DNA of 64,000 nucleotides from the NCBI GenBank assembly GCA_035934015.1, contig DASYYH010000006.1, positions 124,001-188,000 of the forward strand. The letters run 5' to 3'. This document shows, piece by piece, positions 28,179 to 33,096 of this stretch (position 1 is its first letter; the number at the start of each line of letters is the position of its first letter). The notes under the pieces were generated by a model that was not told where the DNA came from, made no database searches, and saw only the letters and a list, made by a program, of their open reading frames with translations. This DNA is from Candidatus Acidiferrales bacterium. Its GTDB lineage: Bacteria > Acidobacteriota > Terriglobia > Acidiferrales > UBA7541. Position numbers and translations under genes: made by a program.

Positions 28179-28291
28179 GTTCGCTTGCCGTCTGCATCTC
28201 TTTTACGCCTCTTTCGCATCCAACCCTTAAACGCATGCACCCTTCGCCGGTTTTTGCAGCAGGTCGGGCACAGGAGCAATCTTTGAGACCA

Positions 28292-28651
28292 ATGGGCATA
28301 GCGTCTTCCGCAGTTCTTGTTCTGCTCGCCTTGATGGTCAGCGCTCCAGCAGCGCGAGCTCAGGATGAGCGCAACGCTTCTCAATTGCGCACTGTTCATG
28401 GCATCGTCATGGACAAGAGCGAAAATCCCATTCCTAGCAGCGTCGTCTATCTCCGCAACATGAGCACCAATGCGGTTCGGACTTATATTCCCGGTCCCGA
28501 TGGCGTCTATCGTTTCACGGGTCTCGATCCCAACGTTGATTTTCAAATTCAAGCTGAGTACAAACATCTGAAGTCCGCAAAGCGCACCATTTCCAGCTTC
28601 GACAGTCGGCGCGACATCGAAATCAATCTCATCATTCCCCTGAAGAATTGA
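28292..28651 (+). CDS. Exported carboxypeptidase-regulatory-like domain protein
   Basis: About 119 residues. The ATG at 28292 precedes the signal peptide (ASSAVLVLLALMVSAPAARAQ). The mature part is an Ig-like CarboxypepD_reg domain: TVHGIVMDKSENPIPSSVVYLRNM, GPDGVYRFTGLDPNVDFQIQAEYKH. The domain is common in acidobacterial exported and TonB-dependent receptor proteins, but this copy stands alone. A role in surface or periplasmic binding is a guess. The frame is open from 28235. Confidence 0.78.
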   Translation: MGIASSAVLVLLALMVSAPAARAQDERNASQLRTVHGIVMDKSENPIPSSVVYLRNMSTNAVRTYIPGPDGVYRFTGLDPNVDFQIQAEYKHLKSAKRTISSFDSRRDIEINLIIPLKN

Positions 28652-29167: not shown

Positions 29168-30658
29168 ATGACGCAACGGAAGCATTTGCGGCTTTTTCCG
29201 TGGCTTGCCGCATGTCTCTCGTGTTTGGCAGGGTGCAGCCACGCCATTTTTCCAACGAATGGAAATAAGGGCGGCGGCGGAAACGCCCCCGTAGTCTTGG
29301 CCATCCACGACGGCGCTGTCGCTTCCAGCATCGGCATTACTTCCATTGAAATCACAGTGACCGGCGCCGTCCTGCAGCCCGGCAACGTTGCACTTCTTTC
29401 CGCGCCCGGACAAACCATCGAGCTGACGCAGTTGCTCACCAACTCCGTCGTTTTTCCCGTCCAAAGCATCGCCGCCAACAGTTACACCAGCTTGGTGCTG
29501 ACCGTCTCCAACCCGCAAATCACGATTTTGAATGACACTGGCGCGTCGCTTCCTCTTGGCAATGGCCAGAGCTGCGCGGTCGGCGCCTCCTGCATCGTGT
29601 CACCCGCGATTTCCAACGGCTCCACGATTACCGTCCCGATCACCGTCTCGCCTTCCGCCAGCGAAGGCACGCTTCTCGAGCTCGACGCCAATCTCAACAA
29701 TATCGTTGGCCAGACGCAGCAGGGCTTCAGCCTCGACTTCACGCAGGCCGGTGCATTGAGTGTCGCCGTCACGCAGAACCCTCAGCTCGCTGCATCATTG
29801 GGCGATTTTTCCCTGCACGGTCAGATCACCAGCGTGAACGCCAGCCAGAATCAATTCAGCATCAAGGCCTCTACCGGCCAATCCTTTACCATCGGAGTCA
29901 ACACCAGCGGCTCCTCCGCCACCACCTTTGAATTTCAGCGCGCCAATTGCGTCGCCAACAATTTCACTTGTCTTTCCTCGGGCCAGACCGTTGACGTCAG
30001 CGCATCCATCATCGGCAACGGCACCTACTCCGCCGTCGAAGTGGATTTCGATCAGCCTTCGGGCGCCCAGCTCGTCAGTGGCACGATCGTATCCCTGGCG
30101 AATATCAATAACGCCACTCCATCCTTGCAAATGATCGTCCACAATACGCTCCCCGCGAATGCCTCTCTGCCCGTCGGTACGCCCGTCACCGTGAATTTGG
30201 CCAATACCGTTACATTTGAAATTAACAACGGCCAATTCGGCTTGCCCGTCGGCGCCACGTTCGGCTCGACCGGCGATTTGCTCGTCGGCCAGGAAGTCGA
30301 AGTCGACATCGTCAACGGCCAAATCACCACGAATCCGCTTTCCTTCAGCACGGATACGATCGCCCTTGAGCAAACGCAGGTTTCCGCCACCGTCACATCA
30401 ACCAATTCCCTGACGAATCTTTTCACCATCGGCAGCCAGGCCGCTCCGCTTCCGGCGATATACGCCGACAATCCGCTGCAAGCCATCTTGCAAATGCAAG
30501 TGAGCGTCAGCTCACCCACGATCTATCAAAATCTCTCTCCCGCCAGCCTGACCGGAGTCACGGTCAATACGCAGGTTTCCACCGGCGGCTTTCTCTTCAA
30601 CACCATCGGCACCGTCGGCTCGCCCACCATTCAAGCCGTAATCGTCCGCGGCCCGTAA
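29168..30658 (+). CDS. DUF4382/DUF5666-type lipoprotein
   Basis: 496 residues. The ATG at 29168 gives a lipoprotein signal (FPWLAACLSCLAGC, lipobox Cys near residue 23). The N-terminal 140 residues are the DUF4382-like domain (VVLAIHDGAVASSIGITSIEITVTGAVLQPGN, TIELTQLLTN). The rest contains repeated DUF5666-like segments, seen as HGQITSVNASQNQFSIKASTGQSFTIGV and VSGTIVSLANINNATPSLQMIV, each a beta-barrel-like module. Exported; function unknown. It is followed by a strong terminator at 30726-30764. Confidence 0.8.
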   Translation: MTQRKHLRLFPWLAACLSCLAGCSHAIFPTNGNKGGGGNAPVVLAIHDGAVASSIGITSIEITVTGAVLQPGNVALLSAPGQTIELTQLLTNSVVFPVQSIAANSYTSLVLTVSNPQITILNDTGASLPLGNGQSCAVGASCIVSPAISNGSTITVPITVSPSASEGTLLELDANLNNIVGQTQQGFSLDFTQAGALSVAVTQNPQLAASLGDFSLHGQITSVNASQNQFSIKASTGQSFTIGVNTSGSSATTFEFQRANCVANNFTCLSSGQTVDVSASIIGNGTYSAVEVDFDQPSGAQLVSGTIVSLANINNATPSLQMIVHNTLPANASLPVGTPVTVNLANTVTFEINNGQFGLPVGATFGSTGDLLVGQEVEVDIVNGQITTNPLSFSTDTIALEQTQVSATVTSTNSLTNLFTIGSQAAPLPAIYADNPLQAILQMQVSVSSPTIYQNLSPASLTGVTVNTQVSTGGFLFNTIGTVGSPTIQAVIVRGP

Positions 30659-30725
30659 GAATCTCCGGTCCATTTTTCTGGGTATCATTCGCGCCGAAGC
30701 CAGCGCACGGCAGTTTCCAAAACGA

Positions 30726-30764
30726 AACGGGGCCGGATTTCTTCTCCGGCCCCGTTCGATTTTT
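30726..30764 (+). terminator. Rho-independent terminator after the lipoprotein gene
   Basis: An 11-bp perfect stem (AACGGGGCCGG paired with CCGGCCCCGTT) around a 9-nt loop, followed by cgaTTTTT. It ends about 68 bp after the lipoprotein stop codon. The RHS fragment ORF on the other strand runs through it, which argues that the left part of that ORF is not coding. Confidence 0.85.
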
Positions 30765-30779
30765 CCTGTGCGCCGTTCG

Positions 30780-31528
30780 TAGGCCTTGCTCGCCGCCTGT
30801 CCGCCGAACGGGTCGGGGATCATGAAGCGCTCTACTTGCGACGAATTGTACCTAGCGCCGAAGTTGTCGAGGTTCGATTCCCAATCGCGCTCTTTGCCGG
30901 TGAAGTACTTCGCACTCGGATCGCAACTCCCGCTTATATTTAGCCCATCTCCAAGCGGCAAGCTCGTGATCGTCTCGCAACTGCTCCCACTTACGTTTGT
31001 CTCCACCCGCTCCGTCCCCAGATGGTCGGTGTGATTGAAGAACGTCGTCGGCGTACTCAGATCGTTCTCATACGTCCCCAAGTGCCTCCCGCCCGCGTAC
31101 AACTCTCCCCGGATCCACCATCCCGTCCCGCTCACCTGCGTAATATAGTTCCCGGCCAGGTCGTAGAGGTAGTCATCCGTGATCCCGCTCCCCGGGACGG
31201 TCCTCCGCACCCGCCGCCCTTCCGCATCATACGTGTAGCAAGCTGTCGCCGCTGTGCCCGTATTGCTCTGGCACCATCCCTCCGTCCCATCCACTTGCGC
31301 CAGATGATGCTCCGCATCGTAATAGTAGCTGTGCGACCCGTCGTTCATCAAATTCCCTGCCGCATCGTAGCTGTAGCCGTCGATTTGATTCGCCGTGGTC
31401 ACGCTGATGCGCAAGTTGTCCGGCTGCGCGCCCGCATCCTTAAACATCAAAGGGTGCGCCGCCACTTCGTATAATCCTCCGAATGTATCGCTTAACGTGG
31501 GCCACCCGCCACTTCTTCGCTGTCGCAC
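30780..31528 (-). pseudogene. RHS/YD-repeat gene fragment 1 (tip only, tail lost)
   Basis: Reads leftward. It has YD repeats (YSYDAAGNLMNDGSHSYYYDAEHHLAQ), then YTYDAEGRRVRRTVPG, TYENDLSTPTTFFNHTDHLGTERVET and the RHS core-end phrase FTGKERDWESNLDNFGARY, RFMIPDPFGG. After DPFGG the sequence does not match a typical RHS tail; the open frame runs through a terminator and into the antisense of the lipoprotein gene. There is no long N-terminal sheath: the frame starts at a GTG at 31528 after an in-frame stop. So it is a decapitated, tail-less relic, 376 bp of which are near-identical to the second fragment. Confidence 0.8.
30861..31236 (-). repeat. RHS tip direct repeat, copy 1
   Basis: Matches 32681-33056 at a constant offset of 1820 bp without gaps, with scattered substitutions mostly toward the left end. 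Similarity resumes at 31373 at an offset of 1682 bp and then runs to about 31428. The 138-bp difference is a 46-codon piece present only in this copy. Confidence 0.85.
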
Positions 31529-31543
31529 GAACGTAGTCTGAGA

Positions 31544-31921
31544 TCATGTCGCGACGCTGAGATGGATCGTCAGCTCCTGCGCGGCGTGCTTTTTGATACG
31601 CACTCGAAGCTCGTAGATATCCATGCCCGGTGCCGATACCTGGATGTAAAACAGCTTTCCCGTCGCCGGTTGTTCCAGCGAGAAGTGGCCCTTCTCATCA
31701 GTCTTCGTGGACGCAAGCACTGTCTTCCAGTCAGAGGTACAGAGTTCAACTGTCACACCATTTGCTGGTTCGTCTGTTCCACGAACAAGAACCTGACCGG
31801 CGAGCGCGCGACTCACGGAGATTTTTTTTTGCATGACACGCTCGGTCGAGTACCCAGCTCCTACAGCGAGGAGGAGAACCAGCGCCAACAGTACAAACCG
31901 ATATAGCATTCTCTTGGTCAT
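31544..31921 (-). CDS. Small membrane-anchored Ig-like protein, candidate immunity protein
   Basis: 125 residues from the ATG at 31921. The N-terminus has one hydrophobic segment (FVLLALVLLLAVGAGY), a signal peptide or anchor. The rest is a CarboxypepD_reg-like beta domain (LAGQVLVRGTDEPANGVTVELC, TKTDEKGHFSLEQPATGKLFYIQVSAPGMDIYELRV). Its ATG overlaps the stop of the RHS tip gene (ATGA at 31918-31921). That coupling, directly behind a toxin-like tail, is the arrangement of polymorphic toxin immunity genes. The beta domain itself is not known as an immunity fold, so an accessory or unrelated periplasmic role remains open. Confidence 0.7.
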   Translation of the reverse strand: MTKRMLYRFVLLALVLLLAVGAGYSTERVMQKKISVSRALAGQVLVRGTDEPANGVTVELCTSDWKTVLASTKTDEKGHFSLEQPATGKLFYIQVSAPGMDIYELRVRIKKHAAQELTIHLSVAT

Positions 31922-33096
31922 TGCTTGATGATGATTCCACCTTGCGCATTTCGAGAGTTCGCTGGCCCTCCAGCACCGGTGTTGTACTCCTTGAGGTAGG
32001 GACGTTGATCTCTCAACTCTAGTTCTCGTTGCAGAGCCGCATCGTGACCTGCCGCGTAACTCCCGCCCTTTCCACCGTCGATCTTCTCGTAGGCCTCGGC
32101 AAGCTCGTGAAACGCAACAGTCCACTCTGGAGCTACCTTTAGATTGGTATTTGACACTCGCGTCATATTCGGATTGTCGAGATTGAGACCGAGGATGTCA
32201 CTGACGCCAGACGGAGGATTACCGATTTGGCGTTGGTCGCCAAATGCTGGAAGGTTAGCCAAATCGAAAGAAATTTTATCGATTCTGACGGGTCCCTTAT
32301 TCGTCATGACCGTGGGGCCGACACTGAAGTCGTATGTATTCTTGCTACCGACGAGATCGTTGACGAGCGCCGCTCCCTCGTTCTTGCTTAGATCAAGGTC
32401 TTTGGTGTCGAAACTAACGACCCCTGTTTTTGCATCCATCGAGAGTCGATTTGCAGCATCTCCAGCGATCTGTTGCAGGTCCGAAAAACACTGTTTTTGG
32501 CTTTCGGCATCTCCGACACACTGCAAAATCTCTCCAGTCGGATCGATAAAACGAAATGGATTATTCGCAACATAGGCGTAGAGGTTGAGCTGTTGCGGAT
32601 TCATCAGCCGTTCTGTCGTTATCAGAACTGGATCGGTGGTCATGAAGCGGCCCATGCTCGAACCGTAGTAGCGTTTTCCGAAGTTATCCAGGTTCGATTC
32701 CCAGTCGCGTTCTTTGCCCGTGAAGTACTTCGCGCTCGGATCGCAACTCCCGCTCGTGTTCAACCCATCTCCGAACGGCAAGCTCGTGATCGTCTCGCAC
32801 GCCGTCCCGTTCACTGCCGTCTCCACCCGCTCCGTCCCCAGATGATCCGTATGATTGAAGAACGTCGTCGGCGTACTCAGATCGTTCTCATACGTCCCCA
32901 AGTGCCTCCCGTCCGCGTACAACTCTCCCCGTATCCACCATCCCGTCCCGCTCACCTGCGTAATATAGTTCCCGTCCAGGTCGTAGAGGTAATCATCCGT
33001 GATCCCGCTTCCCGGCACTGTCCTCCGCACCCGCCGCCCTTCCGCATCATACGAGTAGCCATCCATTTGATTTGCCGTGGTCACGCTGATGTTCAA
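31918..33096 (-). CDS. RHS/YD-repeat tip with toxin-like C-terminal domain (5' truncated)
   Basis: 392 residues from a TTG at 33096; the frame is open a little further to about 33200, so the true start is unclear and the gene looks like the 3' end of a lost long RHS gene. Residues 1-165 are YD repeat and core end (YSYDAEGRRVRRTVPG, DHLGTERVETAVNGT, FTGKERDWESNLDNFGKRYYGSSMGRFMTTDP), closing with LNLYAYVANNPFRFIDPTGE. After that comes a different 225-residue tail, with WTVAFHELAEAYEKIDGG then SYAAGHDAALQRELELRDQRPYLKEYNTGAGGP. HELxEAY plus a downstream His could be a metalloprotease-like site, but it is not a strict HExxH. The tail is followed by a coupled small gene. Lower GC and a different style suggest transfer. 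Confidence 0.75.
   Translation of the reverse strand: MNISVTTANQMDGYSYDAEGRRVRRTVPGSGITDDYLYDLDGNYITQVSGTGWWIRGELYADGRHLGTYENDLSTPTTFFNHTDHLGTERVETAVNGTACETITSLPFGDGLNTSGSCDPSAKYFTGKERDWESNLDNFGKRYYGSSMGRFMTTDPVLITTERLMNPQQLNLYAYVANNPFRFIDPTGEILQCVGDAESQKQCFSDLQQIAGDAANRLSMDAKTGVVSFDTKDLDLSKNEGAALVNDLVGSKNTYDFSVGPTVMTNKGPVRIDKISFDLANLPAFGDQRQIGNPPSGVSDILGLNLDNPNMTRVSNTNLKVAPEWTVAFHELAEAYEKIDGGKGGSYAAGHDAALQRELELRDQRPYLKEYNTGAGGPANSRNAQGGIIIKQ
32681..33056 (-). repeat. RHS tip direct repeat, copy 2
   Basis: The partner of 30861-31236. Relative to copy 1, 138 bp (46 codons) are missing between this block and the next homologous block (33055 onward), exactly between two YD motifs (YSYDA and YTYDA), which shows deletion by recombination between YD repeats. 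Confidence 0.85.

Follow-up and report, generated by a model that had tools for sequence, protein, structure and literature searches.

Why would a Rhs gene that lacks its N-terminal part end in a tail of its own kind, and why would its stop codon overlap the start of a small gene? The question is raised by a locus of a Candidatus Acidiferrales bacterium, within a 64,000-nucleotide stretch of DNA (assembly GCA_035934015.1, 3.37 Mb in 28 contigs; contig DASYYH010000006.1, positions 124,001–188,000) that was analysed whole and is called the window here. An earlier note on this DNA had read the layout as a polymorphic toxin followed by its immunity gene. Our analysis supports that reading, and we suggest that the locus is probably an orphan Rhs polymorphic-toxin module in which a zincin-type envelope peptidase is paired with an exported immunity protein of transthyretin (TTR) fold, and which lies dormant in this genome.

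The tip and its partner

The elements of the module, in window coordinates, are the following.

31918–33096, minus strand: orphan Rhs tip gene, N-terminally truncated, 392 residues, TTG start; end of the core plus tail
32533–33096, minus strand: Rhs/YD core remnant, last residues DPTG; TIGR03696 at residues 107–188
31921–32532, minus strand: 204-residue tail, proposed zincin-type toxin domain
32089–32109, minus strand: HELAEAY (HExxE) motif, tail residues 142–148; H, E and E kept in 15 of 15 covering alignment rows
32023–32046, minus strand: from the invariant His that lies downstream of the motif, tail residue 163, to Glu 170, on the following helix of the model; 15 of 15 covering rows
31544–31921, minus strand: partner gene, 125 residues, proposed exported immunity protein; its start overlaps the tip stop by 4 bases (31918–31921)
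31559–31804, minus strand: CarboxypepD_reg or TTR-like domain of the partner, residues 40–121; Pfam E 6e-8, Z 12.0

The Rhs_assc_core model (TIGR03696) matches the tip with an E-value of 5.2e-17. As this match extends to residue 188, the unique tail noted earlier after the core does exist but has 204 residues, not 225. The HELxEAY motif and downstream histidine were also correctly seen, the former as FHELAEAY at tail residues 141–148 and the latter as H163, with E170 beyond it. The predicted coupling to the small gene holds as well: the stop codon of the tip (TGA, 31918–31920) and the start codon of the partner (ATG, 31919–31921) share the letters ATGA.

The partner begins with a hydrophobic helix (residues 3–20), in keeping with the membrane anchor proposed earlier, but by eye the protein appears to be exported rather than merely anchored. 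Its CarboxypepD_reg domain passes the Pfam cut-off (33.4 bits against 32.3), as had been expected, but the fold is TTR-like where an Ig-like one had been named. A structural model of the partner (predicted local distance difference test, pLDDT, 85.5) matches the TTR-like domain of human carboxypeptidase D at Z 12.0 and 2.1 Å over 81 residues and the N-terminal domain of SusC at Z 11.0, and its best Foldseek E-value is 1.2e-4.

The pair recurs in other genomes

Nine distinct Rhs-linked tails of this family were collected: that of the window, those of G058 (L013/L029), G013 (L014/L034), G557 (L046), an Aminicenantes genome (L033/L047), OFTM328 (L032) and G272 (L049), and two from SRVP_3 (L028 and L030; L031 has the proteins of L030). 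Directly downstream of eight of the nine, at gaps of −4 to +40 bases, lies a CarboxypepD_reg-type protein. The layout of tip and partner is more than chance, since this tail, directly followed by a partner of this kind, is found again in other genomes.

For comparison, 30 Rhs loci were drawn from 151 relatives, one of which (L080) turned out to belong to the tail family. A profile built from the partners, run against all 30 loci in any frame, matched L080 and none of the 29 others, although some loci are short at contig ends and a neighbour may lie off the record; it also matched none of six loci of the tail domain outside Rhs genes, described below. Only the misses are informative here, because the profile was built from the partners themselves. 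An independent Pfam scan covered 21 downstream proteins (six of the 30 loci gave no Rhs frame and three no downstream gene; for L074 the protein was scanned in a frame other than the script's first choice) and found CarboxypepD_reg in two, presumably those of L080 and of L073, the latter a receptor of at least 472 residues. The idea that any Rhs tip has a CarboxypepD_reg neighbour was rejected on these two counts.

Among the control loci, L068 (294–2104) holds a Rhs tip with a HEFEH tail and a 4-base overlap with a small, apparently exported, beta-rich-looking protein. It was considered as perhaps a second case of a zincin with an exported partner and set aside, neither protein giving a Pfam or profile-comparison match.

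Tail and partner have also travelled together. Across the eight pairs the similarity matrices of tails and partners agree with r 0.89, a value reached by 6 of 40,320 permutations (G557 entered with a C-terminal tail piece only), and the two SRVP_3 copies are of different types, each with its own type of partner. As a comparison of sequences, this agreement shows co-inheritance and not binding, since common descent of linked genes gives it too. When the window is aligned with the G058 and SRVP_3 DNA, the upstream Rhs cores are the more divergent part (similarity per 60 columns 33–57% and 51–70%, respectively, over 33043–32694); at about 32690 similarity goes up, to mostly 70–100% in the tail and 38–77% in the partner, and it falls after about 31555. 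The DNA common to the three genomes spans roughly the end of the core, through the tail, to the end of the partner, and is a mobile unit. Both genes are under purifying selection, with ratios of nonsynonymous to synonymous divergence (dN/dS) of 0.09–0.22 for the tail (three pairs) and 0.11–0.19 for the partner (four pairs, synonymous divergence nearly saturated).

The settings of these pairs vary. A full-length Rhs protein with RHS repeats and such a tail is encoded in the Aminicenantes genome (L033, 2121 residues). At L046 (6516–14008), a full-length Rhs gene of 1923 residues with another tail is followed by the frameshifted orphan HELAEAY tip of G557 and its partner, which is a main gene plus orphan arrangement. 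The OFTM328 gene is frameshifted too, and in G013 sequence other than Rhs core precedes the tail, with a Rhs tip following it. In SRVP_3, a reading frame that looks by eye like a transposase (L028, 7217–7732, minus strand) separates the HELAEAY module from the Rhs tip next to it.

Predicted fold and metal site of the tail

The earlier note had allowed for the outcome that the tail would show no fold. This did not occur: an AlphaFold2 model from 16 aligned rows is confident (pLDDT 80.9, predicted template modelling score 0.83) and looks zincin-like. In a second look with VIA-align over 400 chains, ranks 1–12 were all zinc metalloproteases, at Z 7.1 to 3.6, and values below 8 may arise by chance. 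The top match was a BoNT-like catalytic domain (Z 7.1, 4.6 Å, 144 residues), followed by GtgA (6.0, 3.6 Å, 136), anthrax lethal factor (5.8, 4.3 Å, 132), deuterolysin (5.3, 4.2 Å, 118), NleC (4.5), vibriolysin (4.3), BepA and AsaP1 (both 4.0) and the PPEP enzymes (4.0 to 3.6). Rank 13 went to a further chain of anthrax lethal toxin, and unrelated rows began at rank 14 with Z 3.3. The zincin-like reading rests on the uniformity of the top ranks combined with the HE helix; the Z values alone would not bear it.

In the model, helix 141–156 bears the HExxE motif and the following helix, 164–181, bears the downstream His and Glu. All five residues are identical in the 15 alignment rows that cover the site (alignment A4), nine of them Rhs-linked and six of the type with a SPOR domain, and N98, L99, D104 and P111 (model numbering, which is tail numbering plus 5) are identical in 15 of the 15 rows that cover them. 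In the common zincins, the motif HExxH precedes a Glu or Asp, and gluzincins use a set of two His and one Glu as ligands. By analogy, H142, E146 and H163 (tail numbers) would be the metal ligands of the tail and E143 the base, a two-His-one-Glu set in which the second and third places would be exchanged.

No clear precedent for HExxE was found in those parts of the literature that were examined. A paper on the M35 family was considered and rejected as one; its available text uses HEXXE alongside HEXXH and shows one protein with HEQSH, so that HEXXE looks loosely meant there. A paper on CLCA1 has HEXXE in one sentence of the part available.

Weighing the readings

Several observations weigh against a peptidase toxin with a TTR-fold antidote. 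The HExxH zinc motif is absent from the tail family, with Glu in place of the second His in all 15 rows, so that the caution voiced earlier about a non-strict motif was justified; the Foldseek search of the tail model against the PDB gave no match below E 1, and the VIA-align scores lie in the range just mentioned. On the side of the partners, the CarboxypepD_reg matches have E-values between 5e-11 and 0.009; three partners of the eight score above the Pfam cut-off, and that of Aminicenantes is the weakest. The tail of G272 has a different neighbour, of 220 residues and with no Pfam match at E 0.1. For the same pairs of genomes, synonymous-site differences are 0.71–0.73 in the partner against 0.30–0.47 in the tail, which is unexpected for a unit moving whole. 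Lastly, the earlier note had raised the case of small-gene homologues lying mostly away from Rhs tips, and here the evidence is divided: nearly all tails are paired, and the partner profile misses the other Rhs loci, but of five strong matches (E < 1e-15) to that profile in 91 relatives, two are paired (G000 and G013) and three solitary (G109, G040 and G044, the last checked over the 213 bases to its contig end, which hold no tail). Orphan immunity genes are common in toxin/immunity systems.

The G272 locus itself (L049, 1–5859) is an array of several orphan Rhs tips with differing tails and small genes; its HETAEAY tip is overlapped by the exported-looking 220-residue protein, after which comes a lipoprotein-like one of 175 residues.

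The alternative that survives best, though we consider it unlikely, keeps the toxin and its immunity protein and takes the tail to be no peptidase, that is, a zincin-like scaffold whose chemistry has been lost or changed, with no metal or as another kind of hydrolase. The substitution of Glu for His in all 15 covering rows would fit this, as would the absence of matches to known peptidase families and, below E 1, to PDB structures with Foldseek. The profile search and structure prediction proposed in the earlier note gave different answers, the former no toxin or peptidase family and the latter a zincin-like model; scans of the tail found nothing convincing in Pfam (best E 0.015, and no model for the family), NCBIfam, PADLOC or PHROGs (best E 0.11), and Foldseek against viral models gave nothing significant. 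A ribosomal protein, the sole PDB sequence found by the tail profile, was unconvincing at E 0.15. Against a loss of chemistry, the His, Glu, Glu, His and Glu are invariant across Rhs tails and SPOR proteins alike, which argues for a site that has been kept.

Less likely still is an ordinary envelope peptidase that serves Rhs self-processing or anchoring, with the small protein as its accessory or substrate rather than an antidote. This view draws on the three settings in which the domain occurs: Rhs tips, Blastocatellia proteins with an N-terminal SPOR domain, and a free-standing protein with a hydrophobic leader (G601, which by eye also keeps HExxE and the downstream His and Glu). The Blastocatellia members (L023, L024, L026, L035/L039, L040 and L041) join a SPOR-like N-terminus to the HELAEAY domain and have no partner gene; the SPOR domain was tested and found in L026 and L041, and by eye the N-terminus of the others resembles it. 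In Rhs genes, however, the domain sits where the variable C-terminus follows DPTG, with a small gene coupled to it, and it is also found within the G272 array of orphan tips. An rpsO-like motif lies downstream in three of the six SPOR-type loci (L023, L024 and L026).

The family was found only in Acidobacteriota, the phylum within which the genome searches stayed. In overlapping samples, the tail matched 3 of 201 near genomes (the source genome, a second at 82% identity, and a third at 42% over a part), 8 of 396 genomes of the phylum (E 0.01 or better, including the weak G168) and 9 of 162 genomes of another class. Eight loci came from a named collection, whose contigs were scanned with two short patterns; they belong to Terriglobia, Candidatus Acidiferrum typicum, Acidobacteriota, Candidatus Aminicenantes and Blastocatellia. 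G168 (E 0.003) was dropped as a region without such a tail and G682 as partial at a contig end, and G601 (E 1e-6) was counted solely as the free-standing relative. Among viral contigs, none of 84 stretches with the pattern was confirmed as a relative, and none was found in the plasmids and phages searched.

That the locus is a Rhs fragment in decay, next to which one of the very common CarboxypepD_reg proteins of Acidobacteriota happens to lie, is largely refuted by the present data: the missing Rhs N-terminus, a second, tail-less copy of the core and partner-profile matches in 91 of 91 relatives (among the matches listed, those beyond the best five are mostly frames of several hundred residues or more) would fit decay, but not the eight pairings in nine tails with none at the 29 other Rhs loci, the agreement of pair similarities and the low dN/dS of both genes.

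A model for the module

For the toxin and immunity module that we prefer, the results above show how the two genes are built and coupled, that they are conserved and under purifying selection, which folds are predicted for them, that the pair types match and how far the shared DNA extends. The mechanism that we infer, in which metal binding, peptidase activity, toxicity, neutralisation, compartment and delivery would fit together, is as follows. The tail would be a zincin-type metallopeptidase whose metal site departs from the usual one: the active-site helix bears HExxE, and the next helix the invariant His and Glu. A full-length Rhs carrier would leave the cell by the Sec route and bring the tail to neighbouring bacteria, where it would cut a target in the cell envelope. 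In the producer, the exported TTR-like partner would wait in the periplasm and cap the active site of the tail, perhaps by means of its first strand (residues 28–37), which lies ahead of the beta-sandwich. A cassette without the Rhs N-terminus would be held in reserve: it could be brought into use by recombining into a full Rhs gene, or be retained for the sake of its antidote.

The envelope is proposed as the place of action because the partners are exported and the relatives are linked to SPOR domains. As to the route, the full-length carrier L033 and the Rhs gene beside the G557 tip (L046) have hydrophobic leaders by eye, and the sheath gene of the type VI secretion system (T6SS; VipB, PF05943) was found in none of six carrier genomes, with a positive Escherichia coli control; for these two reasons Sec export is likelier than a T6SS. 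We advance more tentatively, with somewhat less than even expectation, the fuller claim of a new toxin family: a zincin with a rearranged site (HExxE plus a His in the next helix), held in check by a TTR-fold inhibitor outside the cytoplasm, and sharing ancestry with the partner-less SPOR proteins of Blastocatellia.

Relation to known systems

In fold, the partner resembles the TTR-like domains of carboxypeptidase D and of the SusC N-terminus; unlike these, it is a small protein in its own right, exported and coupled to a toxin tail, and forms no part of a peptidase or receptor. The periplasmic serralysin inhibitor Inh/AprI is likewise a small beta protein that is exported; its gene neighbours that of a zinc protease, and its N-terminal segment enters the active site of that protease. 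Its fold differs from the TTR-like one, and it serves only as an analogy for how the partner may act; we claim no relationship.

Systems of this kind are already known; this one looks like a new variant in its toxin family, the site of that family and the partner. Koskiniemi et al. (2014; PMC3967940) report that recombination with a main rhs gene can activate an orphan one in Salmonella, and the orphan rhs-CT/rhsI modules described there resemble the present one in joining a truncated Rhs fragment and a variable C-terminal toxin to an immunity gene directly after it, and in having no export or initiation signals. The Acidiferrales module differs in that weak searches found no main rhs gene in its genome, in its toxin family and partner, and in that the carriers searched have no T6SS sheath gene. 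Zhang et al. (2012; PMC3482391), in the portion available, list the zincin toxin domains Tox-MPTase1–5, HopH1/NleD-like and ALF-like with HExxH; like these, the tail is a C-terminal metallopeptidase-like domain of a sort often found behind RHS repeats, but Tox-MPTase1–5 and HopH1 carry the HExxH that it lacks, and that text lists no immunity protein for them, whereas a partner is present here. No words beginning with transthyretin or carboxypeptidase occur in that text, as far as it was available. Bacterial teneurin-like proteins (PMC13018210, available in part) have a YD-shell, variable toxic C-termini and a downstream immunity gene, and occur in Acidobacteriota too; the available text names no zincin tail or TTR-like immunity protein, and its TTR domain is part of metazoan teneurin. 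A literature search found no paper that joins Rhs, immunity protein and 'carboxypeptidase regulatory-like'.

If the model is correct, the peptidase toxins gain a family whose metal site is non-canonical, and the CarboxypepD_reg/TTR fold, itself very common, acquires a role as an exported inhibitor. The model would also mean that Acidobacteriota exchange Rhs cassettes, and do so in genomes that yielded no T6SS sheath gene. As the toxin domain has a SPOR-domain relative that lives without a partner, its envelope target might be reached through that relative.

Surroundings of the tip

The tip begins with TTG within the YD region, in a reading frame open over 423 residues only, and has neither the N-terminal part of Rhs nor an export signal. 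Close by lies one further element of the same kind.

30512–31528, minus strand: second copy of the Rhs core, without a tail

Positions 30858–31239 of this copy and 32678–33059 of the tip are 91% identical in DNA. The Rhs frames of the source genome that match the tip are all short, the longest open one having 507 residues. Two N-terminal Rhs queries found no full-length Rhs gene there, a weak result, as the first matched nowhere and the second only its source genome and one relative. On these sequence data the tip appears dormant in its own genome unless recombined, since that genome shows only short frames matching the tip and no full gene in the weak searches. At L016 (C11) and L017 (C3) the same genome has more short Rhs frames, of up to about 490 residues, whose tails differ and which have no full-length Rhs gene in their vicinity.

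In relatives, many matches to the Rhs core sit in short open frames of 200–600 residues (L051–L080), and orphan-like tips seem common among their Rhs loci, to which broken assemblies may add. A few kb from the tip, on the opposite strand and with no adjoining Rhs tail, the window encodes a second small CarboxypepD_reg protein (28235–28651, plus strand; 138 residues, Pfam E 2.7e-9).
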